A stretch of DNA of 64,000 bases. Origin: Harmothoe impar. Lineage: Eukaryota; Annelida; Polychaeta; Phyllodocida; Polynoidae. The notes under the pieces are model-generated. The model was given only the letters and a program-made list of their open reading frames with translations. It made no database searches and was not told where the DNA came from. The stretch spans positions 42,687,472-42,751,471 of the forward strand of contig OX381715.1 of the NCBI GenBank assembly GCA_947462335.1, given 5' to 3'. Each line of letters starts with the position of its first letter. Within the stretch, counting starts at the first letter, position 1. This document shows, piece by piece, positions 7,393 to 64,000 of this stretch. The position numbers and the translations under genes are program-made.

Positions 7393-7393
7393 G

Positions 7394-7635: not shown

Positions 7636-7639
7636 CAAT

Positions 7640-15479: not shown

Positions 15480-15510
15480 GGTTAATCCAAAATAAGGTTA
15501 CTCCAGCAGC

Positions 15511-15718
15511 AGAAAAAAATGGCTGTACCTGGTCCCAGTGTTTGAAAAGGTAACTGGGTCACAGGGGTGGATTGTGGGAGGTGCCACCCCGGTGACCCCT
15601 AGGTGGGAAACCAGGAACCAACTGCAGCGTCTGAGTAGCAGACCACTGCAGGAGTATAGTAGTAGACATACACTGACAGTTATACAGTTATAATAACAAC
15701 CTAATTATAACCCCCATA
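15511..15718 (-). repeat. Ngaro split repeat A1
   Basis: This is the 5' terminal repeat in the minus sense, starting about 30 bp upstream of the gag ATG. It shares about 208 bp with A2. Confidence 0.85.
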
Positions 15719-15932
15719 TTAATAAATAATTATGACTATATTTCTATGTCAACAAGCATACTCTATAATTATAAGAGAACAAAGAGGAAGTCAGTGGTTA
15801 GGTGTCAAGCATCAGATATTACATGGCCAACAACACACCAACCACAATGTAATAATGCAATAATTACATTAAAGAAGCAAAATACTTCACCGGTACATAA
15901 TCAATCAACAATAACTCTGAATCAGAATTAAG
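15719..15932 (-). other. 3' flank of the DIRS-order element's recombinase
   Basis: AT-rich, no frame. It lies between Ngaro A1 and the stop of the broken recombinase and presumably belongs to the DIRS-order element's 3' end. Confidence 0.35.
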
Positions 15933-16749
15933 TCAGTACCGGTAAATAGCACTAGATTTCCAATTACAAAGTACCCTAATAGAATCAAGTGGTACATTCA
16001 AGGACCTCAAAAGAGAAGCCCCACCATGTCTCAAAGAATGGGTACTTATCCTGTTGACAGGAAAGCCCACTCTTTTGGACAAATCTTTCAATCTTGAGTT
16101 AAAGGCATTGTAGTGCAAATGCATTAAGTCAGAGCTTCTATGAGAATTTTGAATAGAGTCAATTAACAAACCTCTCACACAAAGGGGAGAACCCGGAATG
16201 TTGTGGAGAAAAATTTTAAAAGGTGATTTACCTAATTGGTCTGTCTTAGAAGACTTAATTTTGAGGGTGACATGGGACAAAGACACATCTATGTCCCCAC
16301 ATGTCAAGGAATGTCTCGTATTGGTGACGTGACATTTCCGCAGAAGGCCCCTGAAGCACAGCAACACTGCAAGCCAAAACGACCTGTGTTCAGAATTTTT
16401 CATGTTTAAAAATTTAAACATGGCCAATGACTGATAAAGGATACCTAGATGGACTATTAAAGCAAGCATAAGTCCTATCAATCCCGATTAAAAGTTGTTT
16501 CACCAGAAAACACATAGAAAAATCAGGAAAACCTAATATTTTACACTGATACCAAACAGCAGAGAGATAATTACGCACTGACACGGGCTTTACCCTGGAG
16601 GACAAATAAGTAGCATACATCCGAGCCTGAATTGAAGAGCAAGAAAACTCCTTGAAATGAAATAATTTACAAAAATTATTATACCTCCTTAATTGAGCTG
16701 CTCGTGTCAGTTTAGTTGAGTCCGCAAGACTAGCATTAAAAAGACACAC
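15933..16749 (-). pseudogene. tyrosine recombinase of the DIRS-order element, frameshifted
   Basis: Two overlapping minus-strand frames (16414-16749, then 15933-16481) together cover a YR. The N-terminal core-binding part contains TRAAQLRRYNNFC and RNYLSAVWYQ. The catalytic part has FRGLLRKCHV, HSLRHGG and a terminal CNWKSSAIYRY. One frameshift near 16440-16480 separates them. The frame stops directly after the probable catalytic tyrosine. It is clearly the same family as the Ngaro recombinase at 10604-11722 but much diverged. Confidence 0.75.
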
Positions 16750-18748
16750 AGCACATGTTATTCATGGACAAGGAATTATTACACAAGTTAATATAACCTT
16801 TATACGGTAGTCTAGATAATTGATCAGCTAATATTTTATCTTCAGATTTAATATAAGTAGCAAACAAGTCTATATTATATATGAAACATAGCCAGAATAA
16901 TTCTCTGAGCCATTCCATACTAAGGTGATTTCTGCTCCTACCGGTATTTATATTGGCTAAGACTTGCATATTATCAGTTATAATATGAATGCGTGAGTCT
17001 CTGTACTTTTCACCCCATCTCTTCAAACCAACCAGCACTGGCCAAAGTTCATATACATTTATGTTATCCTTATGAACATCCAAACGATCCAGTAGGGGTG
17101 GAAGAACTCCATGATTACATTTAGACGCTGGAAAAAATTCCTTGTTCCAAATACCATATAAGAAGTCTGTACCAGACCAAGCACCAAAACCTTTAGTAGA
17201 GGTGTCAGACACTATAGGGTCATATGTTAGATCCTTAGGAATTAATGATTTACAATTAAAATGTCGCCAGAACTGCTTCCACCACAGCAAGTCTTTCCTG
17301 GTCTCTTCACATAGGAATATGGAACCTCTATCCTTAGCTCTAGCACACAAGTCAAAGAGGCGCCTACTAAAAGTTCTTCCACCCCTAACCACGGATGAGC
17401 AGAAACTCATGAGCCCACCAATGCTCTGCAATTGTTTTTTGGTAGCATGAGACCGACCAATACACTCTTCTAAGGCTCTGTTAAGTTTAAACAACTTCTC
17501 CTCAGGCAGGGCTAGCTCCATATTAACCAAATCTATTGTAATCCCCAAGAAGGTGGTAGTAGTACATGGAGAAGTGACTTTATTAAAGGCAACACTAAAA
17601 CCCAAAAATTCCATTACCTCTATCATAAGGTCTCGTTGGCGAAGACATTCTAGCTCGGAGTCACAAATCATTAAAAAATCGTCAAGGTAATTAACCACCT
17701 TACCAACTCCATAAGCTCTACCCACCAACACAATGAATTCAGATATCTTGTTGAAAATATAAGGCGCACACCTTAGACCAAAGCCTGTTGTTTTCATAAT
17801 TTTCATAACCCAAGCCAAAATTCCACCTGAATCCTTGAAAGGTACAGTGAGGAGCATATACATTCACCGTCCTATAGGCTGACTTCAAATCGATGACAGC
17901 CATGTGATCACCTCTATCCAAAAGTGAGACTGCTGTGCTAACAGAATTATAAGTAAATGGTTTATAAGTCTGTTGCATAAAATTATTTATAGCCTTATGT
18001 CCCGGCATGCTACAATCTGTGATAGGCCTAAGTTTTCCATTTGACTTTGAAACCCCTCCTAGAGCATGAACACATCCAGGTCTCATTATTGTCTGAGTCA
18101 CTAACCCTGCCTGGGTCTCTTATTGCACTAGGTCACACATTTCAGAGTAAAAATTATCCTCGAGAATTGAGTTATAAGTTTTACAAAAATACTCGGTCTC
18201 ACAATTATCATCAATAATTTTGAAACCGTTTACTACCCCCTGCCAAATAAATTTGGCCATTTCAGGGTCATGGGGCAGAACATTGCCCTGGCCATACAAA
18301 AATGGGCAAACCTACATGGCATAAGGTTTGTACTCCTGCCCCCAATTAAATGTATGCATTTACATGTACCAGCCAAAGAATTTTCATACACACTAATTAC
18401 AGGTGTATCAACACCACCTTCAATTTGAAATAACAAATTATTAGGTTCATTAGGTAGATTGTCTAATTTCCCAGGTAAATTACTGCCTGGTGGGAAGTTT
18501 ACATTTTTTGACAAATTAGAAAGATCCTGAAAATTCTCAAAATGTTTTGAACTATCTCGAGTAGAAAAATTAATTTCAACGTTCCGGAGGTTTTTTGAAC
18601 ATTCTGGGTCGCCAAAAATAATTTTGGGACTCCCAAAAATATCTGACTCATTTTCAACAGTCTGAGTTTGGGCTTTGGAGATAACTACGTCAGAGTCTAA
18701 GGCAATCTGAATTTTTGACTCCTTAAGTAGCACATCCCTAACATCCTA
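16736..18748 (-). pseudogene. RT/RNase H of the DIRS-order element, with stops and frameshifts
   Basis: Pieces at 18233-18748, 17739-18101 and 16736-17863 are collinear with the Ngaro pol: a Cys-rich patch, VHALGG...LRPITDC, IDLKSAYRTVN, FGLRCAPYIF, YLDD, VSDTSTKGFGAW, YELWPVL, IITDNMQ and a final LADQLSRL. An in-frame TAA lies near 18120 and frameshifts near 18230 and 17790. The frame upstream continues from gag through a TAG at about 18749-18751, the same gag-stop-pol layout as the Ngaro. A near-identical partial copy lies at 20474-22072. Confidence 0.75.
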
Positions 18749-18907
18749 CTTAGAGACAGACTTAGCATCATTCTTACAATCAAATGCCCCATGTGAGCTG
18801 GACTTGCAGAACATGCATTGGTGCCTATATCTACACCCCTGCGAGCTGCATCCAGATACCTTGTTGAAAGTAAAACAAGATCTAGGTCCCTCCGATTTAG
18901 ACACTGC
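18749..18907 (-). pseudogene. C-terminal gag fragment of the DIRS-order element
   Basis: The frame encodes a CCCH-like CSSQGCRYRH followed by the knuckle CMFCKSSSHGAFDC and ends ...SVSK-TAG, matching the gag C-terminus of the Ngaro. An in-frame TAA upstream (near 18908) and loss of homology suggest that the gag N-terminus is missing. Confidence 0.6.
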
Positions 18908-19000
18908 TTATTTATACTCAGATTCAACGAGTTGATCCGTCCTATTAAACCCTTTTCATATGTTAAGTATGAGAACATCATGTTGGAACACCTGAGGTGA

Positions 19001-19676
19001 TATGTATCACAATAACTATAACTTATTTTATATATTATATGAGTAACCTGGCAGTGTACCCGGAAACCCTTACAATTAAATATAGCTTACTGGTGATCTA
19101 GTTGTGGGCAAGGTGCTCTCCGCTTCTAATAGACAAATGAGTAAGGTGCTGTCCTCTTCTTAATACTGTTTCTTGGATAAATATCACTCGTAGGTAAGTT
19201 CATATATATATACACAGCTCGGCAAGTATCCCGTCCTCGTTCCAGGAATGTTCATTATATAGGTAAGTATAATCCAACTGGAAACCACGAGCATAGTTTG
19301 TTTAGTGCGTAATCCTTGGACGGGAACAGTTTATAACACAGCACAATAATATCAGGAACAACATCATGGTAAAGTATCCCAAAAATTAGTTCAGGGGCGT
19401 TGGTTTGGTAGCTTCCTGGTGGAGTCCTGATTCCCCATCAGGTCAGCTTAAGTTGAGAGTTGAGTAGTTAGGTAAGTCCAGAGTTCCCACGGAAGTTCCC
19501 CTGCATTGTTAATGCATCTAAAAAGATGCTCCCTATTCCCAAGAGAATAAGGGAAACCCGTCATAAAAATAAATTATGACATCCGATTAAATGAAAGAAC
19601 AATTAATCAACAGGGAAACTTTTAATTCCCATACCCTATTTCTATAGAATAGAAAGAGACTCAGAGCCTTTAGTGT
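19001..19676 (-). other. Gypsy copy 1, first part of 3' non-coding region
   Basis: Closely related to 52530-53216 in copy 2 (shared GAGTAACCTGGCAGTGTACC, CACAGCTCGGCAAGTATCCC and others). No long frame. It lies between the accessory ORF and the point where the DIRS-order element broke in. Confidence 0.7.
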
Positions 19677-20473
19677 TTACCCTAATGGCTCGTCTTTTGC
19701 CCTCATTAGGGCAAGTGCGTGCTCAGCCGTGCCATCCCACATATCGAATGCCACGCCAAACACCCCGTAGAACTTTACGTTGATGTCCTGTAGCCTGCTG
19801 GCTAACTTCTCGTTCTCCTGACGAAAGAATTCTGAGGCTGCTTCGGCTTTCCTTTTGCCAGAATCCGCCCCCCTTGACTTCTTTGCCAAGTACTCAGCAT
19901 TGCCAGCAGTGATCAATGCTTTTTCTTCCCTATGGGCTATCTTTAGGCCATGTGTAAATAGGCCTAACATCCGGGTGGAGTACTCCACCGCCAACTGTCG
20001 TTAGGTCAAAGGCAGAGAAGTCTTTGATCTCGTTAGCGGGCTCTCTTTGGGCCAGGCACCACCGTGGTCAGGTTGACTACTGGTGCTGTCTGAACTACTC
20101 AGATGTCTCGTACGGTAGCTATCCGTACTAGAGGAGGCCGTTGCATGCCCGCCGGAGTCACGTTTCCGCTCCTTCCGGTCAACATACAATGGATCTGGAT
20201 ACTCGCGATAGTTATCACGACCTTCCGGGGCTTGATAATTCCCATAGTAGGAATTATCGATCTCCTCCAGAGTGGAGCCCGCGTTCCTCCTCTTCCGGCC
20301 CGGAGAGGAAGATCAGGAGCGGTCCCGGCCGGACCGGCTCCTCCCTCGAGCACCCCCTTGAGCTTCTGGTTGCCGGAAGCTGCCGGCACCCCTTCGGGAG
20401 GTACGGCTGTTACAGAGAACTCCGTACTCCTCGTCGTTCATGGCGAACTTGTTTCGTCCGTCCACTCTTGCGG
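19677..20473 (-). pseudogene. Gypsy accessory helical ORF, copy 1 (N-part degraded)
   Basis: The 3' part (19677-19994) encodes about 105 residues with long Ala/Glu/Lys/Arg-rich helices (FTHGLKIAHREEKALI, KRKAEAASEFFRQENEKL) and ends in FYGVFGVAFDMWDGTAEHAL...DEPLG. The same protein is present in copy 2 at 56784-57546. Upstream, 20000-20473 is Ser/Arg/Asp-rich in several frames (RKERKRDSGGHATASSS), so a frameshift near 20000 splits the ORF. The position after pol and before the 3' LTR is where some Gypsy elements carry env or accessory genes. No signal peptide or transmembrane segment is visible. Function unknown; a coiled-coil protein is what the sequence shows. Confidence 0.55.
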
Positions 20474-22072
20474 TAGCAAACAAGTCTAAATTATATATGA
20501 AACATAGCCAGAATAATTCTCTGAGCCATTCCATACTAAGGTGATTTCTGCTCCTACCGGTATTTATATTGGCTAAGACTTGCATATTATCAGTTATAAT
20601 ATGAATGCGTGAGTCTCTGTACTTTTCACCCCATCTCTTCAAACCAACCAGCACTGGCCAAAGTTCATATACATTTATGTTATCCTTATGAACATCCAAA
20701 CGATCCAGTAGGGGTGGAAGAACTCCATGATTACATTTAGACGCTGGAAAAAATTCCTTGTTCCAAATACCATATAAGAAGTCTGTACCAGACCAAGCAC
20801 CAAAACCTTTAGTAGAGGTGTCAGACACTATAGGGTCATATGTTAGATCCTTAGGAATTAACGATTTACAATTAAAATGTCGACAGAACTGCTTCCACCA
20901 CAGCAAGTCTTTCCTGGTCTCTTCACATAGGAATATGGAACCTCTATCCTTAGCTCTAGCACACAAGTCAAAGAGGCGCCTACTAAAAGTTCTTCCACCC
21001 CTAACCACGGATGAGCAGAAACTCATGAGCCCACCAATGCTCTGCAATTGTTTTTTGGTAGCATGAGACCGACCAATACACTCTTCTAAGGCTCTGTTAA
21101 GTTTAAACAACTTCTCCTCAGGCAGGGCTAGCTCCATATTAACCGAATCTATTGTAATCCCCAAGAAGGTGGTAGTAGTACATGGAGAAGTGACTTTATT
21201 AAAGGCAACACTAAAACCCAAAAATTCCATTACCTCTATCATAAGGTCTCGTTGGCGAAGACATTCTAGCTCGGAGTCACAAATCATTAAAAAATCGTCA
21301 AGGTAATTAACCACCTTACCAACTCCATGAGCTCTACCCACCAATACAATGAATTCAGATATCTTGTCGAAAATATAAGGCGCACACCTTAGACCAAAGC
21401 CTGTTGTTTTCATAATTTTCATAACCCAAGCCAAAATTCCACCTGAATCCTTGAAAGGTACAGTGAGGAGCATATACATTCACCGTCCTATAGGCTGACT
21501 TCAATTCGATGACAGATGACAGCCTCTATCCAAAAGTGAGACTGCTGTGCTAACAGAATTATAAGTAAATGGTTTATAAGTCTGTTGCATAAAATTATTT
21601 ATAGCCTTATGTCCCGGCATGCTACAATCTGTGATAGGCCTAAGTTTTCCATTTGACTTTGAAACCCCTCCTAGAGCATGAACACATCCAGGTCTCATTA
21701 TTGTCTGAGTCACTAACCCTGCCTGGGTCTCTTATTGCACTAGGTCACACATTTCAGAGTAAAAATTATCCTCGAGAATTGAGTTATAAGTTTTACAAAA
21801 ATACTCGGTCTCACAATTATCATCAATAATTTTGAAACCGTTTACTACCCCCTGCCAAATAAATTTGGCCATTTCAGGGTCATGGGGCAGAACATTGCCC
21901 TGGCCATACAAAAATGGGCAAACCTACATGGCATAAGGTTTGTACTCCTGCCCCCAATTAAATGTATGCATTTACATGTACCAGCCAAAGAATTTTCATA
22001 CACACTAATTACAGGTGTATCAACACCACCTTCAATTTGAAATAACAAATTATTAGGTTCATTAGGTAGATT
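20474..22072 (-). pseudogene. second, truncated copy of the DIRS-order pol
   Basis: This segment matches 16858-18460 almost base for base, including the same frameshift and stop defects, so it derives from an already defective copy. It starts within RNase H and ends upstream of RT, with no recombinase or gag. On one side it joins the Gypsy accessory-ORF region (20473), forming a chimeric frame. On the other it joins the Gypsy RNase H (22073). It sits exactly where the Gypsy integrase would be. Confidence 0.75.
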
Positions 22073-39237: not shown

Positions 39238-39362
39238 CCCAGCTAACAAAAAACGTTTTCAGAACGTTTTAAAACGTTTTTATATGGTTTGTAAGAAAAC
39301 GTTTGTTTCCAAACATTTTGAAACGTTTTTAAAACGTTTGGAAACAAACGTTTTTGTACAAA
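39238..39362. mobile_element. AACGTT-repeat element, one end missing
   Basis: This begins CCCAGCTAACAAAAAACG and continues as alternating AACGTTTT/AAAACGTTT blocks including a GTTTCCAAAC/GTTTGGAAAC inversion. The expected CTGGG end is not found. Confidence 0.5.
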
Positions 39363-39829: not shown

Positions 39830-40667
39830 ACAGGGTAATGGAAGGGAGTCCTTCTACGAGACTATTGGAGTACATGGAATAAATCTTAACCCATTGAGGG
39901 CGGATGTGGTCACCCATAACTCTATGGGATTTAGGAATGTCCCGGCCCCAGGGAGAAATTTTGGAAAGTTTCCTGGCCCCATGACTAAAAATAAAAATAT
40001 CTGGTCGGCCTCAATGGTTTAAGCACTAGAATATAGGCAGACACAATACACAAGTACCTGCAGATAGATTGTCCTCATTAATACATGCACCCTGTAGTGG
40101 GAAATGCTTTATTTACTAAATCCTGACAGAAGATTAAAGTATAAAGTGTTGGCTATAGGCGGGTATTCTTTTATAGATGATGTCAGGATTTTGACACTAT
40201 TAATTTTAGCCTGATGGTTGCGAGATGATAACAAAACTATAGTATTTGGAGACTATTTAGCCTTACATACTATTTAGCCTTAGTGATGGAACGATGACGC
40301 TAATGGGCTAACAAGCGTGACGCAGCTGGCTCCAGCCTATTGGATTATTTAATTGAGTTAATTCACTTCTACACTGCAAAGTTCGCGACAAATATCTGGG
40401 GGAGTATACAATTGATATTTGCTGAAGATTTGGTGAAGAAATATCAAATATTTAAAAAGTTAGAGCAACTTTAACTTTCTAATGCCGTGGATTTAAAAAG
40501 TGACGGTTATTGGACGATATTAGGTGAAGTTACCCATACCTACAACGTTGGAGCTACTCGGAGCTGCTCGGTTCAAAAAAGTGGACTATTTCAATACTAT
40601 ATTCCTGCTATATTTCTACTTTAATGAACATTATACAAGCTTATATTGAATTATAACTAAATTCAAT
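39830..40667 (+). other. probable 5' UTR/promoter region of the NADAR-LINE
   Basis: No other gene is present. The sequence upstream of ORF1 contains TGACGC motifs near 40276 and 40318. It likely holds the LINE 5' end, but the boundary cannot be placed without another copy. Confidence 0.35.
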
Positions 40668-42002
40668 ATGCCTTCTAGAGTAGAGCAAAGGATTGAGGAG
40701 CTGTTTGGTGAGGTTAAGCGGGTGAGAGAGTCAGTCGAGCTGCTCGCCGGCCTCACTAGTCGAGTTGACGCTGTAGAGAAACTTTTACTGCCGTTGAAAG
40801 AAACGGTTGGTGATATCGAAGTGGCCACACAAAGTCATAGTGATCTTCTTGAATCCCATGTGTTAAAGATTGATAGCAACACTAAGGTGGGTGAGGAAAC
40901 AGTGGTTAGAGTAGATGTTCTAGAGAAAGATATCAAAGACTTCTCTGATGGACTGGAGTTTAAGGAGGCCATTAAAGTAGCTGTCCAAGTAGCGGTCGAG
41001 GAGGCTATGAAGAAGAAGGAAGAGAAGGATAAGAGTAATGTGAAGGTTGAGGCTATCCAAGATAAAAGAAAGTTTAACCTCTTGTTGCTGAATGTACCAG
41101 AGTACAAAAGGGAGAATCTCATGAGAGACGTCTGTGGAATACTGATCCCATTGAAGAGGAATTTTAGGAATGATATAGTTCATGTCAAAAGGCTGGGGGT
41201 TTTCTCTGGAGTAAATGCACCTAGGCCTATCCTCATTGAGTTCCAATCAACTAGAGTGAGGGACTATGTTCTTCATAAAAGATTCGCCATTAGAGACACT
41301 GACGATAAGAGATGCAGGAAATTTACCATAGTGGAAGACGTAGACGAGGAAACTAAGAAAGTACGAGAAACAGTGAGGGGAATCGTCAATCTGGGGGAGC
41401 AGCTCAAGTTGGAAGTCAGGCAGGCTGGTGATTTTGTGCTATTAAAAGGGAAACCTTACAATGGTAAAAATGAACTTCATCTTCTCCCAGAGGAACTATC
41501 AGTTGAAAAGGCATTCACTCGCAAGTTGGAGAAAGGGGTTATGTTCCAGGGGGAGCATAGCTTCTTGTCTAATTTCTACCCGGAGAAGATATCATTTCAA
41601 GGCACTGATTATACATGTAACGAGCAAGCTCTGTTCCATGTGAAGGCACAGATTTGTGGAGATGCTGCCAGAGGGAGGGAGATTATGAAGGAGACGGATC
41701 CCAAGAAAATAAAAAGATTGGGAAAAGAAATCAAGAACAATGACCCATGGCTGGCTCAGCAAAAGAACATATTAAAGGAGATTAACCTAGTCAAGTTCAC
41801 CATTCCGGAGATGAAGGCTAAGCTGTTGGACACTGGAATTAAGCCAATATGGGAATGCTCTGGATGTCCCTATTGGGGTGTAGGAGTCCATTTGCTATCA
41901 AAAGACATTGAAGTTGGTAAGTGGCATGGACAGAACATCTTCGGTCAGATGTTGGTGGAAATCCGAAGAGAAAAGAGAACTGAGACCCAGCATAGAGTCT
42001 AG
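40668..42002 (+). CDS. LINE ORF1: coiled coil, RRM-like domain and C-terminal NADAR domain
   Basis: This 444-residue protein has three parts. Residues ~1-120 are a heptad-rich coiled coil (RIEELFGEVKRVRESVELL). Residues ~130-245 look like the RRM of L1/CR1-type ORF1 proteins (KFNLLLLNVPEYKRENL, VHVKRLG, RPILIEF). Residues ~291-436 match the NADAR/YbiA fold. The NADAR signatures are FLSNFYP, CNEQALFHVKA (Glu319), KRLGKEIKNNDPW, LLDTGIKPIWECS (Glu396), YWGVGV (Trp403) and GQNIFGQMLVEIR. NADAR proteins act on NAD- or ADP-ribose-linked substrates, including N-glycosidic bonds. The first two parts should bind the element RNA and trimerise. What a NADAR domain does for a retrotransposon is not known to me. 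Confidence 0.85.
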   Translation: MPSRVEQRIEELFGEVKRVRESVELLAGLTSRVDAVEKLLLPLKETVGDIEVATQSHSDLLESHVLKIDSNTKVGEETVVRVDVLEKDIKDFSDGLEFKEAIKVAVQVAVEEAMKKKEEKDKSNVKVEAIQDKRKFNLLLLNVPEYKRENLMRDVCGILIPLKRNFRNDIVHVKRLGVFSGVNAPRPILIEFQSTRVRDYVLHKRFAIRDTDDKRCRKFTIVEDVDEETKKVRETVRGIVNLGEQLKLEVRQAGDFVLLKGKPYNGKNELHLLPEELSVEKAFTRKLEKGVMFQGEHSFLSNFYPEKISFQGTDYTCNEQALFHVKAQICGDAARGREIMKETDPKKIKRLGKEIKNNDPWLAQQKNILKEINLVKFTIPEMKAKLLDTGIKPIWECSGCPYWGVGVHLLSKDIEVGKWHGQNIFGQMLVEIRREKRTETQHRV

Positions 42003-42911
42003 AAACTTTTGTTGTTGACCGAAGCAGTTTTCTTTATGAAATAATTTTTTTCAGTTGTCATAATTCTAGCACACAGTAGATAAACATGTTTACATTAATC
42101 ATACTTAATCTGGCTATTTAATTTGGCGTACTTGCTTAGGAATTAATTAATTTGTAAAGGCCGGTAGCGGTGCGAGTATTAGTCTCAAGTTTAGACTGAG
42201 GCGGCAAAGGTAAATAGATGACGTCACGAAGCGTTCAGTAGCCGGGTAACAAGGCGCGCTCCTTAGCGTCTCTTAGTAACGGTAGTCATGGCAACACTGC
42301 AAACAATATGGCGGATCAGTGAGTCGACTTCATCGTGTCGTCGCTTCTCTCTGTGTATGTACTTGGCTTTTTATAATAGTTATATAGTGATTATAATGGA
42401 TTATTATAGCCTAAGCATTGTATTATATCCACTAGATTATAGTGGCAAAGTTATAAGGCGCTGTAATGTCCGCTGTTTATTTAAAATAGAAAACATATGC
42501 GTAAGACTGCTTCGGTCATGTGTGTTTATACAAGTTTCCTCGTATGCATTTATCAATGATGTATATTGGGTATCTTTCAAGGTTCTAATAAGGTGTTTAG
42601 AGCTTTGTCATTATTGACTCAGGGAAGCGAGTCTAGGGAGGGTTGTATAAATCAATACGCTAGAATATATGAGGTTTATTTGTGAAAAAATTAGCTTTGT
42701 CGCAGTTAATTTAATCACATGTATTTGAATTGTCGATACTATCTATTCTTTCTAGTGCTATTTCTATAATATCAATGATTATATTTGAGAACTCAATTTA
42801 TATATTTCTAATTGCTGGAAGTCAGCAAGTTATCTTTCCACTATTGTGCAAATTGTTAACAACGCAATCCCCCCCCCTCCCCCCCCCCCTCATCAAATCT
42901 CATCATACAAC
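42003..42911 (+). other. inter-ORF spacer with promoter-like motifs
   Basis: The 909-bp gap between ORF1 and ORF2 is unusually long. It contains a consensus cAMP-response element TGACGTCA (42219-42226), a YY1-like ATATGGCGG (42306-42314) in GC-richer DNA, and a C-tract of about 20 at 42869-42889 just before the ORF2 ATG. It may be an internal promoter driving ORF2, or the start of a separate element. Confidence 0.4.
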
Positions 42912-45782
42912 ATGCCTAAAGGTTTACAAATGGTGTTTTGGAACACGCAGAGTGTAAAATCAAAGGACAGTAATGTTGTTGAATACTTGTCAAGTCTCAA
43001 TGCTGATGTTATTAGTATTTCTGAAACATGGTTAAAAGAACATATGGGTGACAATTTCTTCACAGTACCTGGCTTTGTGGTACATAGATTGGATAGAGAA
43101 ATCACAAATGAAAATGGATTGTTGAGAAGAGGTGGTGGACTTGCCATGATTATTAAAAATGGTCTGACACATGAGATATTAAAAGGTAAAGATGTGAATG
43201 TTGTTAATGAACATTGTGAGCTAATGGTGGCCAAATTATCGCTACCTTATACCAGGAAAATCTATGTCATAAATGTATATAGGCCCCCCTCAGGGGATGT
43301 CAAGGAGTTTATTAAGATAGTTACCAAGGCTCTGAAAATTATAACTGTTGGTAAAAGGGATAAAGATATTTTTTTAGGAGGGGATGTAAATATCGATTAT
43401 GCAGTGAATTCCCCAGAGAAAAATAAGTTAATTTTATTAGAGATTGCCAATGGCTTTAAACAGTATATTAAACATCCGACAAGGCCGCTCTATAGTGAGA
43501 AGGTGTTAGATTTAATTTTTTCTAACTCGAATGATGTATTCCAGACTGGCCAGCTTTACATTAATGTTAGTGACCATGTACCAGTCTATGTGGTTAGGAA
43601 AAAATTTAAGGTAAAGAGTAAACCAATTGAATTTTTTGGTAGATCTTACAGAAATTATAGTAAGGAAGACATGTTACAAAGTCTTAGTGAGTTGGAATGG
43701 GAAGACTTTTTTGCTTGCAATGATCCTGAGGAAGCCTGGGAAATCTTATTTGGGAGACTTTTGGAATATTTGAATAGAAAGTGTCCTATCAAAAATAGAA
43801 AATTTAAAAAGCAGAAAGCTAAATGGGTGACTGCTGAGTTACTGAGGCTGATGAATGATAGAGATGCTGCGCTGAGGAAAGCAGTACTTTCTGGGAAGAT
43901 TGAGGATATCATAGTGGCTAAAGCGCTTAAAAATAGGTCAAATCTCAAGTCGAAGCAGGCAAAAAGGGATTATATCAGGAATTTATTAAAAGAAAATTCT
44001 GGTGACCCAAAGGCGTTCTGGGCTGCCATAAAGGAAATGTTACCCTCTGAGGAGAAAGGGGGAATCTTTAATCTAAAAGATAGTTTAGGGGAGGAAATTG
44101 AGCAGCATGATGCAGCTAATCATATTAATGAGTTTTTTGCAAATGTAGGAAAAAATCTGGCAGCAAAAATTGCCCCTGTCAGAGACTATCAAGCTCCTGA
44201 CATTACTTTACCTGAAGATGAATTAATTTTTAATGATATCTCTTTAGAAGAACTAGTAAAAGAATTGATGTCAATTAATGAAAAGAAGTCTTCTGGAATA
44301 GAGCATGTTTCTGCAAAAGTGTTAAAAGAATTCTTGATTGGTCGTAAGAATAATTTTCTTCATATCATAAATTTGTCAATTTCAAGTGGTACTTTTCCTA
44401 GTAAATGGAAGGAGGCAAAGATTTCTCCGATCCCAAAAATAAAAAATCCTGGTGATGTATCTGACTTAAGGCCAATTTCTTTACTTCCCACAACAGGGAA
44501 GATTTTGGAAAAATTCATTCACAGACAAACCAGCCATTTTCTAGAAAGTAATATGTTGTTGAATCCAAAACAGAGTGGCTTCAGAAAGAATAGGAGTACT
44601 CAAGATGCTGTTCTGGATCTGAATGACATTATTTTTGAGTCCTTGAATGATGGAAAGTACACAGGTGCAGTTTATATTGATTATAAAAAGGCATTTGATA
44701 CTATTAGTCATACTAAACTGATTGCTAAATTACCGAAATATGGTTTTGGTGAGAATGTTATTAGATGGTTTAGCAGTTACCTGGTTGATAGAAAACAAAA
44801 AACTTTTGCAAATGGAGTGCATTCTGATTGGGAAAATGTGTCTTTTGGAGTGCCTCAAGGTTCAATTTTGGGTCCTTTGCTATTTATTTTGTATGTAAAT
44901 GATCTTTCATTATTAGATATGTCATGTAATTGTCTCCAATATGCTGACGATACGGTATTATTTTATTCTGGTCATGATTTAAATGTCATTTCAAACACTC
45001 TACAAGCTGACCTAAGTAGGTTGGTTGACTGGTGTGATATGAATCAACTCACAATTAATGCAAAGAAAACAAAAAACATGTTATATACTTATGAGGAGAA
45101 TGCAATATTACCCCCTATTAGGGTGAAGGGTATTGAGCTAGAGAATGTGAATAAGTACAAATATCTTGGTATTATAATGGAAAGTAATATGAGTTTTAAA
45201 TCACAATTTTCTAAGACAATTAGTTCTGTGAATCAAAAAACATGGTTATTACGTTACTTCAGAGAACATATGAATGAGGAAACATCTGTGTTGCTATTTA
45301 AAACCATGTTATTACCTTATATTGATAATAGCAGTGTGTTCTTGTCAGGTATAACTTTGCTTGACCAGAAAAAATTGCAAATTCTGCAAAATGTTGGTAT
45401 TAGAGTATGTCTCCATATTAAGGACCCTATGTCTGTATCGGTAAAGGTAATTCACAAGAAAGTTAAAGTTTTGCCAACAGATTTGAGAAGAAAATATTTA
45501 CAAGGCATACTTTGTTACAGATTAATTAAACTAAATGCCTTGAGAATGGTTGCAAATAGATGTACCCGTGCTGCTGATGGTCCATTAATAATGACATACT
45601 TATCTCATACTGTAAGGGTACAGAAATCACCCCCGGTAGATGCATATAATACTTGGAATAGAATTAAGCCTGAAATAAGAAATGCTGATACTGGTTCATC
45701 TTTTAAAGGTAAATTGAAGAAGAGTATCATTAAGTTCTTTGAGACTGAGTGGAGTTATGATCTTCAATACACTAATCTCTAG
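42912..45782 (+). CDS. LINE ORF2: AP endonuclease and reverse transcriptase
   Basis: This is a 956-residue protein starting MPKGLQMVFWNTQSV. Residues 1-~230 are an AP-type endonuclease with WNTQS, ISETWL, YRPPSGD, LGGDVN (about residue 157) and SDH (about 220-222). The RT covers about 470-760 with LRPISLLPTTGKILEK, GFRKNRSTQDA, YIDYKKAFDTI, GVPQGSILGPLLF and the catalytic YADD at 677-680. A C-terminal helical region follows (LDQKKLQILQNVGIRVCL). There are no internal stops. It would nick the target and prime cDNA synthesis from the element RNA. The in-frame sequence upstream of the ATG at 42912 is a C-tract, so this ATG is the likely start. Confidence 0.9.
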   Translation: MPKGLQMVFWNTQSVKSKDSNVVEYLSSLNADVISISETWLKEHMGDNFFTVPGFVVHRLDREITNENGLLRRGGGLAMIIKNGLTHEILKGKDVNVVNEHCELMVAKLSLPYTRKIYVINVYRPPSGDVKEFIKIVTKALKIITVGKRDKDIFLGGDVNIDYAVNSPEKNKLILLEIANGFKQYIKHPTRPLYSEKVLDLIFSNSNDVFQTGQLYINVSDHVPVYVVRKKFKVKSKPIEFFGRSYRNYSKEDMLQSLSELEWEDFFACNDPEEAWEILFGRLLEYLNRKCPIKNRKFKKQKAKWVTAELLRLMNDRDAALRKAVLSGKIEDIIVAKALKNRSNLKSKQAKRDYIRNLLKENSGDPKAFWAAIKEMLPSEEKGGIFNLKDSLGEEIEQHDAANHINEFFANVGKNLAAKIAPVRDYQAPDITLPEDELIFNDISLEELVKELMSINEKKSSGIEHVSAKVLKEFLIGRKNNFLHIINLSISSGTFPSKWKEAKISPIPKIKNPGDVSDLRPISLLPTTGKILEKFIHRQTSHFLESNMLLNPKQSGFRKNRSTQDAVLDLNDIIFESLNDGKYTGAVYIDYKKAFDTISHTKLIAKLPKYGFGENVIRWFSSYLVDRKQKTFANGVHSDWENVSFGVPQGSILGPLLFILYVNDLSLLDMSCNCLQYADDTVLFYSGHDLNVISNTLQADLSRLVDWCDMNQLTINAKKTKNMLYTYEENAILPPIRVKGIELENVNKYKYLGIIMESNMSFKSQFSKTISSVNQKTWLLRYFREHMNEETSVLLFKTMLLPYIDNSSVFLSGITLLDQKKLQILQNVGIRVCLHIKDPMSVSVKVIHKKVKVLPTDLRRKYLQGILCYRLIKLNALRMVANRCTRAADGPLIMTYLSHTVRVQKSPPVDAYNTWNRIKPEIRNADTGSSFKGKLKKSIIKFFETEWSYDLQYTNL

Positions 45783-46385
45783 GTGTATTGAGTTACATTG
45801 AATTGGTCTTGTTCAATTCTATCTATGTTTCTCTTATCACCATGAAAGCCCTGTATGAACGTGCAGCAGATGAACTTTTCGTTGAATTTATTCAACTTGG
45901 TGGGCAATTAAATAATAATATATCAAGTCTCTGTATTGTATTAGTATTGCAGGATTTTATGTCATGTTATATCATATTTTCTTTTTATCTCTCATACCAT
46001 GTATAATAGTAAACTATTCAAATCTTGGCCTATGAAACGACCGTGATCACCTTGTGTATAGACTGTGAACTGTTAAGTACAGTAGTTGAAATAGGTACTT
46101 AGAAATATGTAACCATTGTATTCATTAGGTATCATATCACTTCTCATCACCCCCCCCTCCCCCCCCTTCCCCAAGTAAAATCATCATGTCTGATTTTTTC
46201 ATAAATCAACATATACCTTATGATTGAAATGGAGGTGATGTAAACAGAATGCAAACTTAGTACTGTGATTTCATTATAAGACCAACCTCTTCTGTGATTC
46301 AATTGAAACAAATATAATTGTATGCACTTTTATATTTTTTGTGATTACAGAATAAACTCTTGTCAAATTGAAATTGAAATTGAAT
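45783..46385 (+). other. 3' UTR and tail of the NADAR-LINE
   Basis: No frame. A second C-rich tract at 46150-46172 echoes the one before ORF2. AATAAA occurs near 46350, followed by the AAATTGAAATTGAAATTG tail. Confidence 0.55.
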
Positions 46386-46511: not shown

Positions 46512-46588
46512 CACCAGCCTCGCTAGCTCATCAAGGAGAGCCTGGGACTACCAATCTATAGGTCATGGGTTCGATTCTCAGCCTGGCT
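46512..46588 (+). repeat. tRNA-like sequence
   Basis: An A-box-like TAGCTCATCAAGGAGAGC and a B-box GGGTTCGATTCTC lie about 30 nt apart, with GGCTTTT after the unit. Stem pairing is partial. A tRNA relic or SINE head is more likely than a gene. Confidence 0.45.
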
Positions 46589-46611
46589 TTTAGATTCTCA
46601 TCCAAAGTCGT

Positions 46612-46825
46612 CTGTAAAAGTTTGGAAACAAACCTTTTGCAAACCTTTTGCAAAAAAAAAATTTCAAACCTTTTGCAAACGTTTATAAAACGTTTTCTTG
46701 CAAATGTTTTTTTGTGTCAACGTTTTAACGTTTTATAAACGTTTTATAAACGTTTTTCTAAAACGTTTGTAAACCTCCTGCAAACGTTTTCCGACCGTTA
46801 GGAAAACGATTTTTTGTTAGCTGGG
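46612..46825. mobile_element. AACGTT-repeat element
   Basis: Alternating AAACGTTT/CAAACCTTTTG blocks end at TTTTTTGTTAGCTGGG, the inverse of the CCCAGCTAACA end seen elsewhere. The left terminus is degraded. Confidence 0.5.
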
Positions 46826-54103: not shown

Positions 54104-56783
54104 TTATCGCCCAATAGCCGCGTGGCGTTGCTTTATCATTGTGAAATCAATTTTCTCTATTAAACCTCTAAATTGTGCTCGAGTCTCAGCTTCCTGGGTA
54201 GCCTTGTCTAATGAGTTCCAGAGTACTACACCTCTAAAGAGTGGTGATTTTTTTACCACATGTAGTTTGCCTCTACCAATTTTGAATTTAACTTTATTGT
54301 CACCTCTTGTTCTTGGATTTTCAGTAATTATCACATTGTCTGGGACTTTTGACATTTTATACAAGAAAAGGAGAAGTTGGATGTCTCTTCTTTTGACTAG
54401 AGTGGGAAGGCTGCATTGAGTGTGCAAATCCTCTTGGGTAATATCCCTTGGATTTCTTATTCTAAGACAACTTCTTAGGCCCCTATTTTGTATTGTCTGG
54501 ACGCTTTTCTGGTCCAGGTAGGTGGCACTGTCAATCATAAAACTACAGTACTCAAGTGTGGGTAGGGTGCAATGTTTGTAAATTGTTAGGCATGTGTCAT
54601 TATCTATAGAATCACGAATCCTGTGTGTTTGTTTTATCTTAAAATTACCACGTTTTCTGACGCCAGCCATGTGTGTCTTCATGGTGAGATTTTCATCTAA
54701 AGTTACACCCAGATAACAAAATGAGTTTACTCTTTCAACATTGTTAATGCCTATTTTCAAAACAGGGTCAGTGACCCCACTCGTTTTTGCTGGGGTGCCA
54801 TATATGACTAACATAGTTTTTTCACTATTGATAGTCAGCCTGTTGGTAGCACACCAGTCTAACAGGAGTTGGAGGTCTGGTTGACCAATGCGAGTCAGAT
54901 CCTCTGCTTTACTACCTTCAGTGATCATGACAGCATCATCGGCATATAAGATGACTTGAGAATTTTCAACAACCTCTGGCATGTCATTAATGTATACAGA
55001 GAAAAGTAGGGGCCCCAAGATTGATCCTTGGGGGACCCCGAAGGTAACTTTTGTGGGTTCTGAAAGTTTATTATTGGCCAGTGTACTGTGCACTCTGTTT
55101 CCTAAATAACTTGCAAACCACCTGAGTACAGATCTGTTGGCGCCAATGGCGCCAAGTTTGTCTAGTAAACGAGCGTGGTGAACTGTGTCAAAAGCTTTCC
55201 TCATTTCAATATATAGACATGAGGAAATCTTGCCTCTGTCCATAGCATTGTATATATTATGCGTTAATACATATACTGCGTCTGCAGTCGAACGACCTGG
55301 GGTGAAACCGAATTGTACTTTAGACAGGAGATCATTCTCCAGCAGGTAGTCCATAAGCTGTCCATGTACAACCCTTTCTATTATTTTACTCATGATGGGC
55401 AGTAGGGTAATTGGTCTCCAGTTACTGAGATTTTGTAAATCACCTTTCCTGGGTATCGGGATAATAGTACCTTTAGCCCATTTATCGGGGAAGACTCCTT
55501 TGTCTAGGCAATTATCTATCAGTACCTTCAGTTGTGGGATTATCAATAGAAGAAAGTCCTTCATAACATTGGAGTTGGTGTAGTCAACACCTGAGGCTTT
55601 CTGCCTATCAACTTTCTTAATGTAAGAGGTGAGATCCTTGATGAGGACTTGCCGAAAAAGGAACTCACCCTCAGTGTATGTCGGGTTGGTTAAGACTGTG
55701 TGTGATTGTGTGTCACCAGCTAAATGGCTGAATTTATCGGCAAGTTTTACCCCAACATTGCCATAGAAGCCATTAATGTAATCACTAGTGTTGTCTGCTG
55801 TGACATCATTGCCATCATTATCTTTTAAGAAAATGGCGGTATTTCTTGATTTGTTATTTCCTAGTAAACGATTAATAATTGCCCAGAATTTGGCAGGATT
55901 ATTTTTATGTGTTTCGACTGTAGCTTTGACCTGATTAGAGAATTCAGTGTGAATACGTCTATTGGAGATAGTCCTTAATCTATGTGCAAGATTTAGACTC
56001 TCGAAGTCCATTCCTCTACTTGTATGAGCGCGCCTGTATGCTTCATTTTTCCTACGTAGCAACTCTAATAGGTCAGGTGGGAACCATCTTCCTTACTTAT
56101 CCTTCCTTACCATAAAAGTTTTAACGGGGCATACTTGGTCAAGGTAGACTATTAATACCTGCTCTATATGGTCCCATTGATCAGTAGGGTTTTCTATTGT
56201 GGCCAATGTGGCCCAATAATGTTCATGTATATGTGTGGTTAGCTTTGCTACATCATGTTGTTTATAAACACGACTAGTAACTTTCTCAACAACCTTGGTC
56301 TTTCTTGTATGTTTAAGAACGACAAATGTTGGTATATGATCAGAGAGTAATAGATTAAGTGTACCAAATTTTGAAACTGTGGTGCTATTTGTGTAGATGT
56401 GATCTATAAAAGTAGCACCAAGGGGATGGAGTCTTGAGATGCCTGTTTGTAGGAGTCTGAGGTGATGGTCTTTCAAAACTCCAAACACTTTACCACATTT
56501 CCTGCTTTCCCTGTGTACCATGTCTATATTACAATCACCTACTACATGAATTTCATGCTTACGTAAAGATCTGTCAGACAGGACTGTGCCTAAACTAGTG
56601 AGGAAGTTTAACAAATCTTTGTTGGGCGGCCTGTAGAAATTAATGACTGTTCTTATCCTATTGTCAGGTTTTTTAATGGTGGTGACTAATATCTCAGTGT
56701 CCTCATTCATTACACATAAATCCCTTCTAATTGATGTATAGGGAGATAGATCATCCCTTATGTAAGTGATCAGACCCCCAGCA
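54104..56783 (-). pseudogene. LINE ORF2 (partial endonuclease and full RT) with one stop
   Basis: The frame starts within the endonuclease (INFYRPPNKDLL, HVVGDCNID, FIDHIYTN, LLSDHIPTFVV). A single in-frame TAA at 56093-56095 follows, then the rest: WRPITLLPIMSKIIERV, GFTPGRSTADAVY, LYIEMRKAFDTVHH, GVPQGSILGPLLFS and the catalytic YADD (about 54949). The C-terminal helical region ends at 54104. Note Glu-Met instead of the usual Asp in IEMRKAFDT. It differs from the NADAR-LINE ORF2 and from the element at 61271. Confidence 0.8.
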
Positions 56784-57546
56784 TTCATTAAGGCAACTGC
56801 ATGTTCGGCGGTACAATCCCACTGCTACCCTGAACACCCCGTAGAACTTAACGTTTAAGGCTTAAAGTCTTGTTCTCCTGGCAAACGAACTCAGCGCTGG
56901 CCTCCGCTTTCCTCTTCTGGTCTTCCACTGCTCTGGTTTTCTTAGCCAAAACCTCAACATTGTCTTTAGAGACTAATGCCTTCTCCTCCTGGTGAGCCCT
57001 CTTGAGACCATGTGTAAACAGGTCCAGGATCTTGGTATTGTACTCCACGGCTAGCTGGCGCTGGGCATCCTGAAACTCAGAAACGATTTTCTGCCAGATG
57101 TCACAGCTAGCTCTCTCCTCTCTCGAGAAGTAATTCCCTATGGGAGTGTATTTAAGCTTTACACCCCCAGTAGTCTCTGTTTGGGAAGTTCCCGGGACAG
57201 GCTGGATGACAACCGGCTCCTGTGCGGTAACCACCGGTTTGACATCCACAACAGGGGCCACCGACGCTGCTGCTGCTGGCTTCTTTGAGGTAACACCTCG
57301 GGGAGCCACCACTGAGATTAATGATTTTGTCTTAGTTTTCACTAAAAGGTTCTTAATTTCCCTAGTAGGGGTAGTGGGGGACTTTACCTCCTGGGCTGTA
57401 GGTTTAGCCTCCAGGCCCATATGGTATGTCAAAGGTAAGGAAGCCTTTGATCTAGGATCTAGTGACCGGGCTAGATTTAGGCCGGGCACCTCCAATTTTG
57501 AATTTATAGCCTTCAAATGGTCCATTCTTATGAATTTTGCACACAT
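56784..57546 (-). CDS. Gypsy accessory helical ORF, copy 2 (3' end cut by LINE)
   Basis: This encodes about 230 residues from ATG 57546 to a stop at 56848. After a frameshift it continues to the LINE boundary (TAEHAVALM, 56784). The N-terminal half is Pro/Thr/Val-rich and low complexity (VVDVKPVVTAQEPVVIQP). The C-terminal half is a long helix (DIWQKIVSEFQDAQRQLAVEY, HQEEKALVSKDNVEVLAKK, KRKAEASAEF) and then FYGVF. The helical half matches copy 1 at 19677-19994 closely (RQLAVEY, FTHGLK, NVKFYGVF). Conservation between copies implies a real element protein. It has no membrane segment. Function unknown. Confidence 0.6.
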
Positions 57547-61270: not shown

Positions 61271-64000
61271 TTTTTTTTTTTGAGTTTATAACGTATTTTA
61301 TTCACTTAGTGATTTTCAAAAAATACGATACATTCAATGTACTATGAGTACTAGGCGATGATGTTGTTTCCATGATGGTACTACATAGTGCAATATGGAT
61401 ATACAATGTAAATAAGTATGCAGGCATATTACAATTGCTTAGGACACCAAGCCATTTGATTAGTGTCGGCAGATGCAATTATACAGTAATCACACACAGT
61501 TACATCATAAATAATGGGGGTACTAACGACACTATTCTGTAAGGGTGTTCCTTTACAATAGTGTATAGGTAGCTCCTATGGTTTCAATCGTTTTGCGAGA
61601 AAGAGACGCATGACGGTTTGTTTGGCTTTTGCCTTGAATGCATCGCGATCTGTTAGTATCCGACATGAGGCGTTCAGAGTGTTCCACAGATCTATTCCCC
61701 TGTAAAGGGGGCTCTTACGATAGCCTAGGGTATTGGAGTGTGGGTATACCAGAAGTCCAGTATTAGTGGATCGTGTAGTACGCCCACAGGCCAAGGGTTG
61801 CTTAAAAGTAAGGCCAAGTGCATCGGGGTCATGGTGTACATTATACAGGTATTTATGAAGTAGTAGTAGCAATTGCATATCAAAGCGTACAGTTAGATAG
61901 TCAACTCGAGCGTCTTGATGCAGGTCGCGAATATGATATCTTTTTTGCACATTTAGGCTTATACGTAGGCATTTATTTTGTATATGCTGCAGCCTTTTAT
62001 GTTGGGTATACACTACTCCATTGAAGAGGTAACCACAGTATTCTAGTACTGGCATTATGGTTTGTTTGTATACGAGAAAGGCAGTGTTGAGTGACATTCG
62101 GCGCCGCATGTTACCAAGCATGTAGCACCTGTTAGAGGCACTACTTACATTCTTGCTGATTGTACTCTTAAGGGTTATGTTGTCATCCAGGATAATGCCA
62201 AGGTATTCATAGCTGGTGTAGCACTGTAGGAGAGTGTCGCCCATTTTTATCTTAGGGGGGGGGGGGGGGGATATCAGGGGTTAGGGGGTTAAAGACCTCA
62301 ATTTTGGTCTTCCCTGTATGGATCACAAGCCCACTATTGCAGAACCAGCTGTGAACGCTCGTGGTGTCATGTTGCAGTTAACTCTCGGCGATATGAAAAT
62401 TGGACGAGGTGGTGTAAAAAACCACATCGTCCGCATACATGATTATTTTACAATGTTTTACAACATTAGGGAGGCTATTTACATAGCAAATAAACAAAAG
62501 GGGGCCTAGTATCGAGCCTTGGGGGACTCCATAAGTAATGGGGAGGGTGCTGGAGGTAGTGCCATTGCAGGTAACCCGCTGGCTTCTATCCCCAAGATAG
62601 GCAAAAAGCCAGTCAGTGTATATTGGCGGGAGCCCTAGATTCCTCATCCTGTTGATAAGTTCTAGGTGGTGAATGCTATCAAAAGCCTTCCGGACGTCCA
62701 GGAAACAGGCCAGCAGGTATTCAGATCTATCTCTAGCTGTGTATATGTCATTTATTAGTCTGAACACCGCGTCATTTGTTCCCCTGGACGCCCGGAATCC
62801 GTATTGAAATTCGCTTAGGAGATTATTATTTTCCAAGTACCGGTAGATACGTTCATATATGATCCTTTCCATGATTTTGCTCGGGGTAGGCAGCAAGGAG
62901 ATCGGCCTCCAGTTGCCTATATCAAGCAGATTACCGCTTTTGGGAAGGGGTATAACGTTGGCACAGGCCCATTGTTTGGGGAAAGATATTGTATGCAGAC
63001 CACAGTTTATCAGAGAGGTTAGTTGGGGTGCAAGTATTAGTAGGGCATCTTTTAGTACAGAGGTATTAATATTGTCAAGGCCACTTGATTTATTAACTTC
63101 AATGGCCTTAACATGTTCTACAACTCTGGAGTAAGGGACATTAGTGTCAGGAGAGGGGTCATAGATGTTGCTTATGGGGGTAAGCAGAGATGCAACATTT
63201 GGCAGATTGCCTAGAGAGTTAAACAGCTTGGATCCTATACCCGTAAAGAACTCATTAATATGAGTGGGGACAGAACCTGCTCTGAGTTCCTCACCTGTGT
63301 CAGCATGCTGTAACACAATATCTGGCTTATTAGGTTCAGTTTTACCTAACAGTATGGCAAGTTCCCGCCAGAACTTGGTTGGATTATTAGACAAGTTATT
63401 CAGTTTATTATGGAAATAGTCATCCTCGGCTGAGCGAGTTTTGGCATTTATATCTCTCCTAACCTGCTTAGCCTTCTCAAGCAGGTCAGGATCACTGTAC
63501 TTGCCAGGAGAATATTCTCTCATGTACTCATTTCTTTCATGAATACACTCGAGGATGTCCTGCGTAATCCATGGTTTGTTGCGGTCCTTAAAGGACATAT
63601 CTTTTATAGGACAGTACATATCCAAATATTTAGTGATACAGGATAAAATGATAGACCATTTGTTATCTACATTGGTGGTGTTATAGAAAGTGGACCAGTC
63701 CAATGAGGTCAAGTGATCGAAGAAATCAGATTGATCATAGTTTTTGTAGGAACGGCCTCGGACTGTCCTGACTATATACACTTCCTTGGCCTTTTTCTTA
63801 ATGGCGAAAATGGGGAGGTGGTCACTAATCAGACAGGGGAGTGTCCCTTTGCTCATAACCTTATCACAATCAGTACTGATTAGATCTATACATGTCCCAC
63901 CCTGCTGATTTGGGTGGGGGCGGGTTATATCAAAGATAATGTTAGTAAGGTTAGTATCAGAAATAGCACGGTTGTAGTACTTGGTTTTACAGTCATCTGG
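61271..64000 (-). mobile_element. LINE inserted in intron 4, runs off the window
   Basis: The 3' end is marked by an A-run (T11 on the plus strand at 61271-61281) after ...GTTATAAACTC in the minus sense. The element continues through ORF2 to the window edge. It lies antisense to the Myb/SANT gene. Confidence 0.8.
61576..64000 (-). pseudogene. LINE ORF2 (endonuclease end, RT), one frameshift
   Basis: From the window edge the minus strand is open to 62378. It covers the end of an AP endonuclease (ISDHLPIFAIKK) and RT motifs NWRPISLLPTPSKIMERI, GFRASRGTNDAVF, LDVRKAFDSIHH, GVPQGSILGPLLF and YADD (about 62410-62421). A frameshift near 62378 and a G-run at 62255-62270 separate it from the C-terminal frame at 61576-62244 (SYEYLGIILDDNITL, LQHIQNKCLRISLNV, ending RLFLAKRLKP). 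It may be otherwise complete; the 5' half is not in view. Confidence 0.8.

Follow-up and report, generated by a model that had tools for sequence, protein, structure and literature searches.

A NADAR domain with conserved catalytic residues in the ORF1 protein of LINE retrotransposons of the polychaete Harmothoe impar

Whether eukaryotes turn nucleic-acid ADP-ribosylation on mobile elements is a question for which a LINE carrying NADAR catalytic residues under purifying selection offers a testable handle, and the roles of eukaryotic NADARs, those of animals included, are called unclear in the available text of PMC11125620. The locus described here raises this question in concrete form: does a NADAR domain belong to the ORF1 protein of a LINE, is it maintained there, and what might it do? 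The window, meaning the whole stretch of 64,000 nucleotides that was analysed (Harmothoe impar, contig OX381715.1, positions 42,687,472 to 42,751,471 of the forward strand), contains one such element with the following features.

40284..46383, plus strand: whole LINE, ends approximate (blastn 5' starts of relatives, 3' alignment of relative L104, ATTGAA-type 3' repeat)
40284..40667, plus strand: 5' UTR, common to relatives L052, L053, L058, L074 and L078
40668..42002, plus strand: ORF1, 444 aa, with coiled coil, RRM, CTD and NADAR
40668..41537, plus strand: L1-ORF1p-like part of ORF1, residues 1-290 (profile A3 against PDB 2yko, 1.1e-5)
41538..41975, plus strand: NADAR domain, residues 291-436 (PF08719, 8bau)
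41622..41624, plus strand: codon of E319, aligned to E43 of the P. nicotianae NADAR
41643..41645, plus strand: codon of K326, aligned to K50 of the P. nicotianae NADAR
41853..41855, plus strand: codon of E396, aligned to E125, the YbiA-family Glu
42003..42911, plus strand: intergenic region, with short conserved blocks in nine sequences (the window and eight relatives)
42016..42031, plus strand: 5' arm of an inverted repeat, partner 42503-42518
42503..42518, plus strand: 3' arm of the inverted repeat, partner 42016-42031
42912..45782, plus strand: ORF2, EEP endonuclease and reverse transcriptase, 956 aa (Pfam)
45783..46383, plus strand: 3' UTR and ATTGAA-type tail (repeat read in the sequence; L104 alignment)

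The ORF1 frame runs from ATG to TAG with zero internal stops, and the remaining five frames across 40650-42002 hold 13-50 stops apiece. Residues 296-435 match the Pfam NADAR family PF08719 at E 1.2e-23 (84.6 bits against a cut-off of 35.1), and the match spans model positions 9-161 of 163, i.e. most of the domain. The solved NADAR structure 8bau, that of Phytophthora nicotianae (PMC11543638), matches the domain at E 6.6e-9. A first-pass annotation of this DNA had proposed a fusion of ORF1 and NADAR in a single open frame and had suggested a profile check of residues 291-436; the intact frame and both matches bear the fusion out, and membership of the domain in the NADAR/YbiA superfamily is confirmed at the level of sequence.

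The front part of ORF1 is less readily classified from a single sequence, for which Pfam returned weak sub-cut-off matches, zero LINE models and no match to PF02994. A four-sequence profile of this part (A3) matches the LINE-1 ORF1P chains 2yko and 2ykp at E 1.1e-5, followed by 2ldy (0.0098) and 2w7a (0.072), while its remaining 12 matches (E up to 1) are unrelated, mainly coiled-coil proteins, at 0.021 or worse. Positions 84-243 of A3 align to residues 4-171 of 2yko, a span taken here to cover the coiled coil, the RRM and part of the CTD. By this profile similarity the front part is of type II (L1-like), with a coiled coil, a single RRM and a CTD, in agreement with the earlier reading of the first two-thirds of the protein as LINE ORF1-like with a coiled coil and an RRM-like part.

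The reverse transcriptase of ORF2 is well above the cut-off (RVT_1, E 2.5e-36), and its endonuclease matches Exo_endo_phos_2 (4.7e-6) and Exo_endo_phos (2.8e-5), both slightly under the curated cut-offs. With an EEP endonuclease and a reverse transcriptase in an ORF2 lying 3' of ORF1, the element is by its predicted domain content a LINE, and motifs such as GVPQGS and YADDT give ORF2 what is presumably a Jockey-group-like look. From the window alone, the linkage of ORF1 to ORF2 is doubtful because the gap between them is long (909 nt), third-position GC is unlike (0.46-0.52 in ORF1 against 0.30 in ORF2), and no target-site duplication of at least 9 nt was found in the compared stretches, in which the single shared 8-mer falls inside the element. 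Short or absent target-site duplications are a property of some LINE clades. The gap, its richness in CpG and the difference in third-position GC all favour an arrangement in which ORF1-NADAR and ORF2 are neighbouring parts of two different elements, an explanation that the other copies in the genome make hardly tenable.

Within the host genome that was compared (1.51 Gb, 736 contigs), the window ORF1 protein has at least 97 matches (95 of 3403 first-look candidates scored), and 50 loci were fetched, comprising 30 closer ones, the window copy (L051) among them, and 20 more diverged ones. In 28/30 closer and 19/20 diverged loci, ORF1-NADAR is followed on its own strand by an ORF2 of this kind, so that the order is kept in 47/50 with the window copy included; L074, L076 and L095 are the ORF1-NADAR loci without a related ORF2 downstream. 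The parts of the element also diverge together. Across 28 loci, the Spearman correlation of pairwise identities is 0.91 between RRM-CTD and NADAR, 0.92 between RRM-CTD and the ORF2 endonuclease, and 0.86 between NADAR and the ORF2 endonuclease, against a best value of 0.52 in 999 permutations. In a blastn comparison restricted to the plus strand, in which minus-strand loci do not appear, the matches of five relatives to the window start at 40284-40289, and the alignments of L052 and L053 are unbroken from 40284 or 40289, through ORF1, to 42428 or 42462, i.e. from the 5' UTR into the gap. At the opposite end of the element, the alignment with the 3' end of relative L104 extends to 46383 (85.6%), and a second relative, L105, gave no match in this part. 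As expected of a LINE, the copies are scattered through the genome, share their ends and differ in flanking sequence.

Further evidence against two separate elements comes from L084 and L085. The two loci match at 99.8% identity across 7.1 kb (from about position 1065 to 8178 in both) and differ on either side, and the matching stretch contains ORF1-NADAR, a third ORF and ORF2. Near-identity within unlike flanks implies that at least one three-ORF unit was mobilised recently as a whole. Two further pairs, L071/L072 (99.8%) and L057/L058 (99.5%), have a common left end and no end-to-end alignment beyond it. With conserved order, continuous alignment, parallel divergence and the L084/L085 pair, the two-element explanation was dropped.

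The linkage is less strict when approached from ORF2. Scores were obtained for 48 ORF2 copies (of 21610 first-look candidates), and for 26 of them the 39 places compared include an ORF1-NADAR no more than 5 kb upstream; for N-terminally complete copies the figures are 23/34 with and 11/34 without it among the places compared. N-complete copies lacking it include G000:C2:6415569, C2:6570291, C14:23543295, C13:18512241, C10:41366562 and C1:6868703. When the ORF1 of the most frequent close family served as query (99 of 3528 candidates scored), none of the missing ORF1s was added, as judged by eye. Such copies may be 5'-truncated, or may be ORF2-only elements starting in the gap. The question of whether ORF1-NADAR is always linked to this ORF2 is thus answered in one direction only: ORF1-NADAR is followed by ORF2 in nearly every fetched locus, but about a third of N-terminally complete ORF2s have none among the places compared. 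None of the three observations that the first-pass annotation had named as speaking against the fusion (other copies without the upstream frame, no NADAR profile match, catalytic residues not conserved between copies) was encountered.

The intergenic region has features of its own. Conserved blocks in the nine sequences include TGACGT, ATGGCG and a variable CATAGCAAC-like stretch, which presumably resemble CRE, YY1 and X-box sites, and the observed/expected CpG ratio is 0.93-1.41 over 42001-42800 compared with <0.5 over 43001-45800. A 14-pair inverted repeat brackets these blocks, with 91.9% of cells paired in the nine sequences and two of the 14 pairs changed on both sides (four cells). Values as high were reached in 500 shuffles 12 times for the covariation score, 30 times for the percentage paired and 127 times for both-sides changes. 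The 16-nt arms were considered as the ends of an inserted DNA transposon, an interpretation ruled out by their occurrence at the same place in 9/9 sequences, some mismatched. The repeat may form a stem, for which the shuffles give modest support, and the conserved gap could possibly act as an internal promoter for ORF2.

The surroundings of the LINE contain other repetitive sequence. Inverted repeats of about 100 nt (74%, with a perfect 16-nt outer part) at 39238-39338 and 46727-46825 flank the LINE; an older DNA element with ends rich in AAACGTTT may enclose it. Just 3' of the LINE, a tRNA-like stretch with a GGTTCGATTC box at 46515-46590, recognised by eye, is perhaps a SINE; it is absent from the Rfam (gathering threshold) and ARAGORN output. 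Elsewhere in the window there are two broken LINE ORF2s on the minus strand (54104-56824 and 61600-63925) with 25-33% identity to the window ORF2, several reverse transcriptase and recombinase-like frames at 10604-19086 and 20313-21479 (minus strand), which by eye are probably DIRS-type elements, and two Rfam tRNA matches on the minus strand (6957-7029 and 7421-7493), neither of which is in the ARAGORN output.

ORF1-NADAR is spread over many families of the host genome. A NADAR profile search scored 150 of 3484 first-look candidates; every one of the 150 passes the cut-off, and the open frames that hold them are 128 to 1331 aa long. Four matches, located on C19 and in a single cluster on C21, are far better than the others (6e-41 to 1e-49; next 4e-29) and are probably stand-alone host NADAR genes, two of which (L101 and L102) were read. 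The corresponding frames lie at G000:C19:3415138 and C21:30057793-30084570, three of them within 27 kb on C21. A separate locus, L103 (G000:C20:21457300-21462000), has a much longer ORF1 with an open frame of 1268 aa, in which coiled-coil, RRM-like and NADAR parts were recognised by eye; NADAR precedes a Q-rich tail, and a different endonuclease ORF2, likewise identified by eye, follows. Outside this genome, no relatives of ORF2 were found in viral contigs, and a search with the window ORF1 protein in a genome contigs database gave no match. Profile searches elsewhere matched the NADAR part alone, in 37 viral and 13 prokaryotic loci, and the protein database contributed three further ORF1-NADAR proteins, P0002, P0003 and P0006.

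The diverged relatives carry an additional gene. A third ORF of about 210-330 aa occurs between ORF1 and ORF2 in 19/20 diverged loci (L081-L100), with the exception in position of L095, where it lies beyond an antisense LINE; it is broken by a frameshift in L090, missing from L099, and present as two tandem copies in L093 (oriented positions 3582-4283 and 4433-5179) and L094. It lies inside the mobile unit, as L084 and L085 demonstrate. Lipase_GDSL_2 matches were obtained for 4/8 third-ORF proteins at 1.9e-4 to 0.015, under the curated cut-off; three of the other four had no match in Pfam and one had only unrelated weak matches, and a comparison with solved structures gave no sound match. In the ORF1-ORF2 gaps of the window and thirteen other loci, including L099 and L103, the search for a third ORF gave no match better than E 3.7. 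The SGNH blocks were located by eye; the Gly of block III is found in 18/18 aligned proteins and the Asn in 14/18, while the Ser and His are lost in 17/18 and both kept only in L091 (oriented 2921-3631). The protein is best described as SGNH-esterase-like, a below-cut-off assignment. GDSL-like ORFs, some without catalytic residues, are reported for bdelloid retroelements in the accessible part of PMC5408684. A third ORF with its catalytic residues lost, beside a NADAR that keeps them, provides a contrast of two enzyme-derived domains within one element.

The catalytic residues of the NADAR part were placed by alignment with the P. nicotianae protein, in which, according to the portions of PMC11543638 available, E43 and E125 touch the distal ribose of ADP-ribose and K50 touches a phosphate. 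E319, K326 and E396 are invariant in 45/45 aligned ORF1-NADARs (42 of the 50 loci and three from elsewhere) at identities down to about 25%, while several neighbouring positions vary, and their counterparts are invariant in 58/58 NADARs from the protein database, viral contigs and prokaryote genomes. The truncated or broken copies L064, L073, L074 and L076-L080 were excluded from this count and from dN/dS. E396 provides the Glu of the YbiA subfamily, not Asp or His. The D-x-x-W motif near the end of the domain is incomplete in the window copy, where W403 is kept and Asp is replaced by Cys; the Asp is present in 26/45 ORF1-NADARs compared with 54/58 of the mostly prokaryotic and viral set. This motif is taken to be the counterpart of D343/W346 of the nematode SNA-3, which were mutated as homologues of YbiA N-glycosidase residues (PMC9303266, as far as available). 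NADAR membership stands despite the absent Asp because the motif is non-defining in the consulted parts of the family papers, and its retention in only 26/45 copies suggests that the chemistry may differ. In the E. coli C7 NADAR, replacement of E88, the counterpart of E319, is tolerated in vitro to some degree with Ala and is inactivating with Gln (PMC11543638, available text).

The NADAR part of these LINE ORF1s evolves under purifying selection, as estimated from codon comparisons. Its dN/dS has a median of 0.107 and a range of 0.03-0.16 (37 pairs, with NADAR dS between 0.05 and 1.2, which share copies and are hence non-independent), and values for the same kind of pairs are a median of 0.074 and up to 0.44 for RRM-CTD (37 pairs) and a median of 0.154 and a range of 0.06-0.44 for the coiled-coil part (36 pairs). 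For the window copy itself, dS to its relatives is saturated or nearly so (NADAR dN 0.073 and dS 2.3 against L052). Both the selection on the NADAR part and the conservation of catalytic residues between copies, which the first-pass annotation had put forward as checks, come out in favour of a maintained domain. Ancestry is less clear. In a first NADAR tree, four ORF1 rows formed a group separate from the remaining 54, which are mainly prokaryotic and viral (98/86, at a point where long branches meet). A second tree, built from 22 ORF1 rows, two host rows of the stand-alone kind and 29 others, 25 of the 54 having been thinned out by hand, has no resolved backbone; it places the host rows and P0004 among the ORF1 rows, and P0002 beside prokaryotes. 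A single origin of ORF1-NADARs was therefore set aside, the grouping not being upheld in the larger tree.

ORF1 and NADAR are fused, the fusion is linked to ORF2 and spread through the genome, its catalytic residues are invariant in aligned copies, and it is under purifying selection. Together these findings frame a proposal of function that has about an even chance of being right: the NADAR of ORF1 would be an ADP-ribosyl-guanine hydrolase tethered to the RNP, where it would protect the RNA or cDNA of the LINE. The ORF1 protein would be a nucleic-acid chaperone of the L1 type (coiled coil, RRM and CTD) that ends in a NADAR hydrolase; by analogy with L1 ORF1p, it probably multimerises on LINE RNA or coats it and would thereby bring many NADAR active sites to each RNP. 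These sites would most likely strip ADP-ribose from guanines, either in the LINE's own RNA or cDNA or in nucleic acid where the element inserts, reversing a host ADP-ribosylation that would otherwise stop reverse transcription or mark the RNP. The substrate and the benefit are deduced from activities known in the NADAR family, and catalysis by the ORF1 domain is likewise conjectural. Guanine-ADP-ribose is hydrolysed by bacterial NADARs and by those of a phage and an oomycete (PMC11543638 and PMC11125620, available text). Counting against this reading, active NADARs from some contexts fail to rescue from DarT1 in vivo (PMC11125620, available text). The 11/34 complete ORF2s without a listed ORF1-NADAR within 5 kb suggest that NADAR is possibly dispensable in cis.

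Other substrates and roles have to be weighed against this proposal. That the domain acts on soluble or protein-linked ADP-ribose derivatives of a host stress or immune response, and not on the nucleic acid of the element, is unlikely, though the conserved residues are equally compatible with it, and in the accessible text of PMC9503650 phage NADARs are suggested to have low-molecular-weight targets, and those of eukaryotic RNA viruses to act on macromolecular ADP-ribosylation. Fusion to an RNA-binding ORF1 in the aligned families would rather suggest an RNP-bound substrate, as a diffusible target needs no such tether. It is quite unlikely that NADAR is a binding module for guanine, the cap, NAD-capped RNA or a host RNP factor, for which catalysis would be unnecessary. 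The NADAR protein SNA-3 acts with the SL1 snRNP and the cap-binding complex in nematodes (PMC9303266, in part), the D-x-x-W Asp is variable, and the third ORF offers a precedent within these elements, as it keeps an SGNH-like frame with catalytic residues lost. A domain used for binding alone should have lost some of its catalytic residues, as the SGNH-like ORF has, but the E/K/E set is intact in every aligned copy among neighbours that vary. Finally, an older demonstrated activity of the family is that of a riboflavin-intermediate N-glycosidase (PMC11543638 and PMC9303266, in the parts available), and the domain could be a YbiA-type enzyme of this pathway acquired from the host. The window copy and 19/45 ORF1-NADARs lack the D-x-x-W Asp, the host stand-alone frames L101 and L102 do have the motif as read by eye, and such an activity gives no reason for fusion to ORF1, all of which makes this origin highly improbable.

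Returning to the RNP-tethered hydrolase, a broader scenario can be put forward only tentatively and seems somewhat doubtful: in an old arms race, the host would ADP-ribosylate retrotransposon RNA or cDNA, and LINEs, which probably include more than one type of ORF2, would counter with an RNP-borne de-ADP-ribosylase. Such a history would account for NADAR being common and selected in the ORF1s of this genome and for a widespread layout of NADAR-ORF1, degenerate SGNH-hydrolase-like ORF and endonuclease-reverse transcriptase.

A fusion of this type has been reported before. The first-pass annotation had not known NADAR as a standard part of LINE ORF1; the combination is not entirely new, as NADAR-like ORF1 domains of Tx1 LINEs of the oyster Crassostrea gigas are described in one sentence on Repbase hits in PMC12477816 (2025, available portions). 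This is the sole report of the fusion among those listed in a search of open-licence literature on NADAR/YbiA/DUF1768 and retrotransposons, by the text available for each. That literature contained nothing on selection, catalytic conservation, linkage to this type of ORF2 or the three-ORF layout, and no LINE with a three-ORF layout of this kind appeared among the matches listed. What appears to be new here is the SGNH-like third ORF of the diverged relatives.

Several known systems share parts of this arrangement. Like the C. gigas Tx1 LINEs, the present elements have a YbiA-family NADAR within ORF1; the oyster report, in its accessible text, is without analysis of selection, linkage or catalytic residues and without a third ORF. 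The oyster elements belong to the Tx1 clade, whereas the reverse transcriptase motifs of the window ORF2 look Jockey-group-like. A Gypsy lineage of Ectocarpus with NADAR in Pol (PMC12477816, available portions) is likewise a case of retroelement-borne NADAR. Hydrolase domains are also found in the esterase (type IV) ORF1 of CR1 and L2 LINEs (PMC3905857 and PMC4120745, in part), which is an unrelated enzyme with a proposed lipid role, whereas the SGNH-like domain described here is a separate third ORF of diverged relatives. Animal RNA viruses, which are RNA-based replicators as well, carry NADARs proposed to counter host ADP-ribosylation, located in polyproteins with RNA polymerase and not in an RNP coat protein (PMC9503650, available text). 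The catalytic Glu and Lys are shared with the DarT1-NADAR toxin-antitoxin system, whose NADAR hydrolyses guanine-ADP-ribose; in contrast to the LINE domain, that protein, as described in the accessible parts of PMC11543638 and PMC11125620, is bacterial and stand-alone, has an Asp in the last strand instead of Glu, and is paired with its own transferase.
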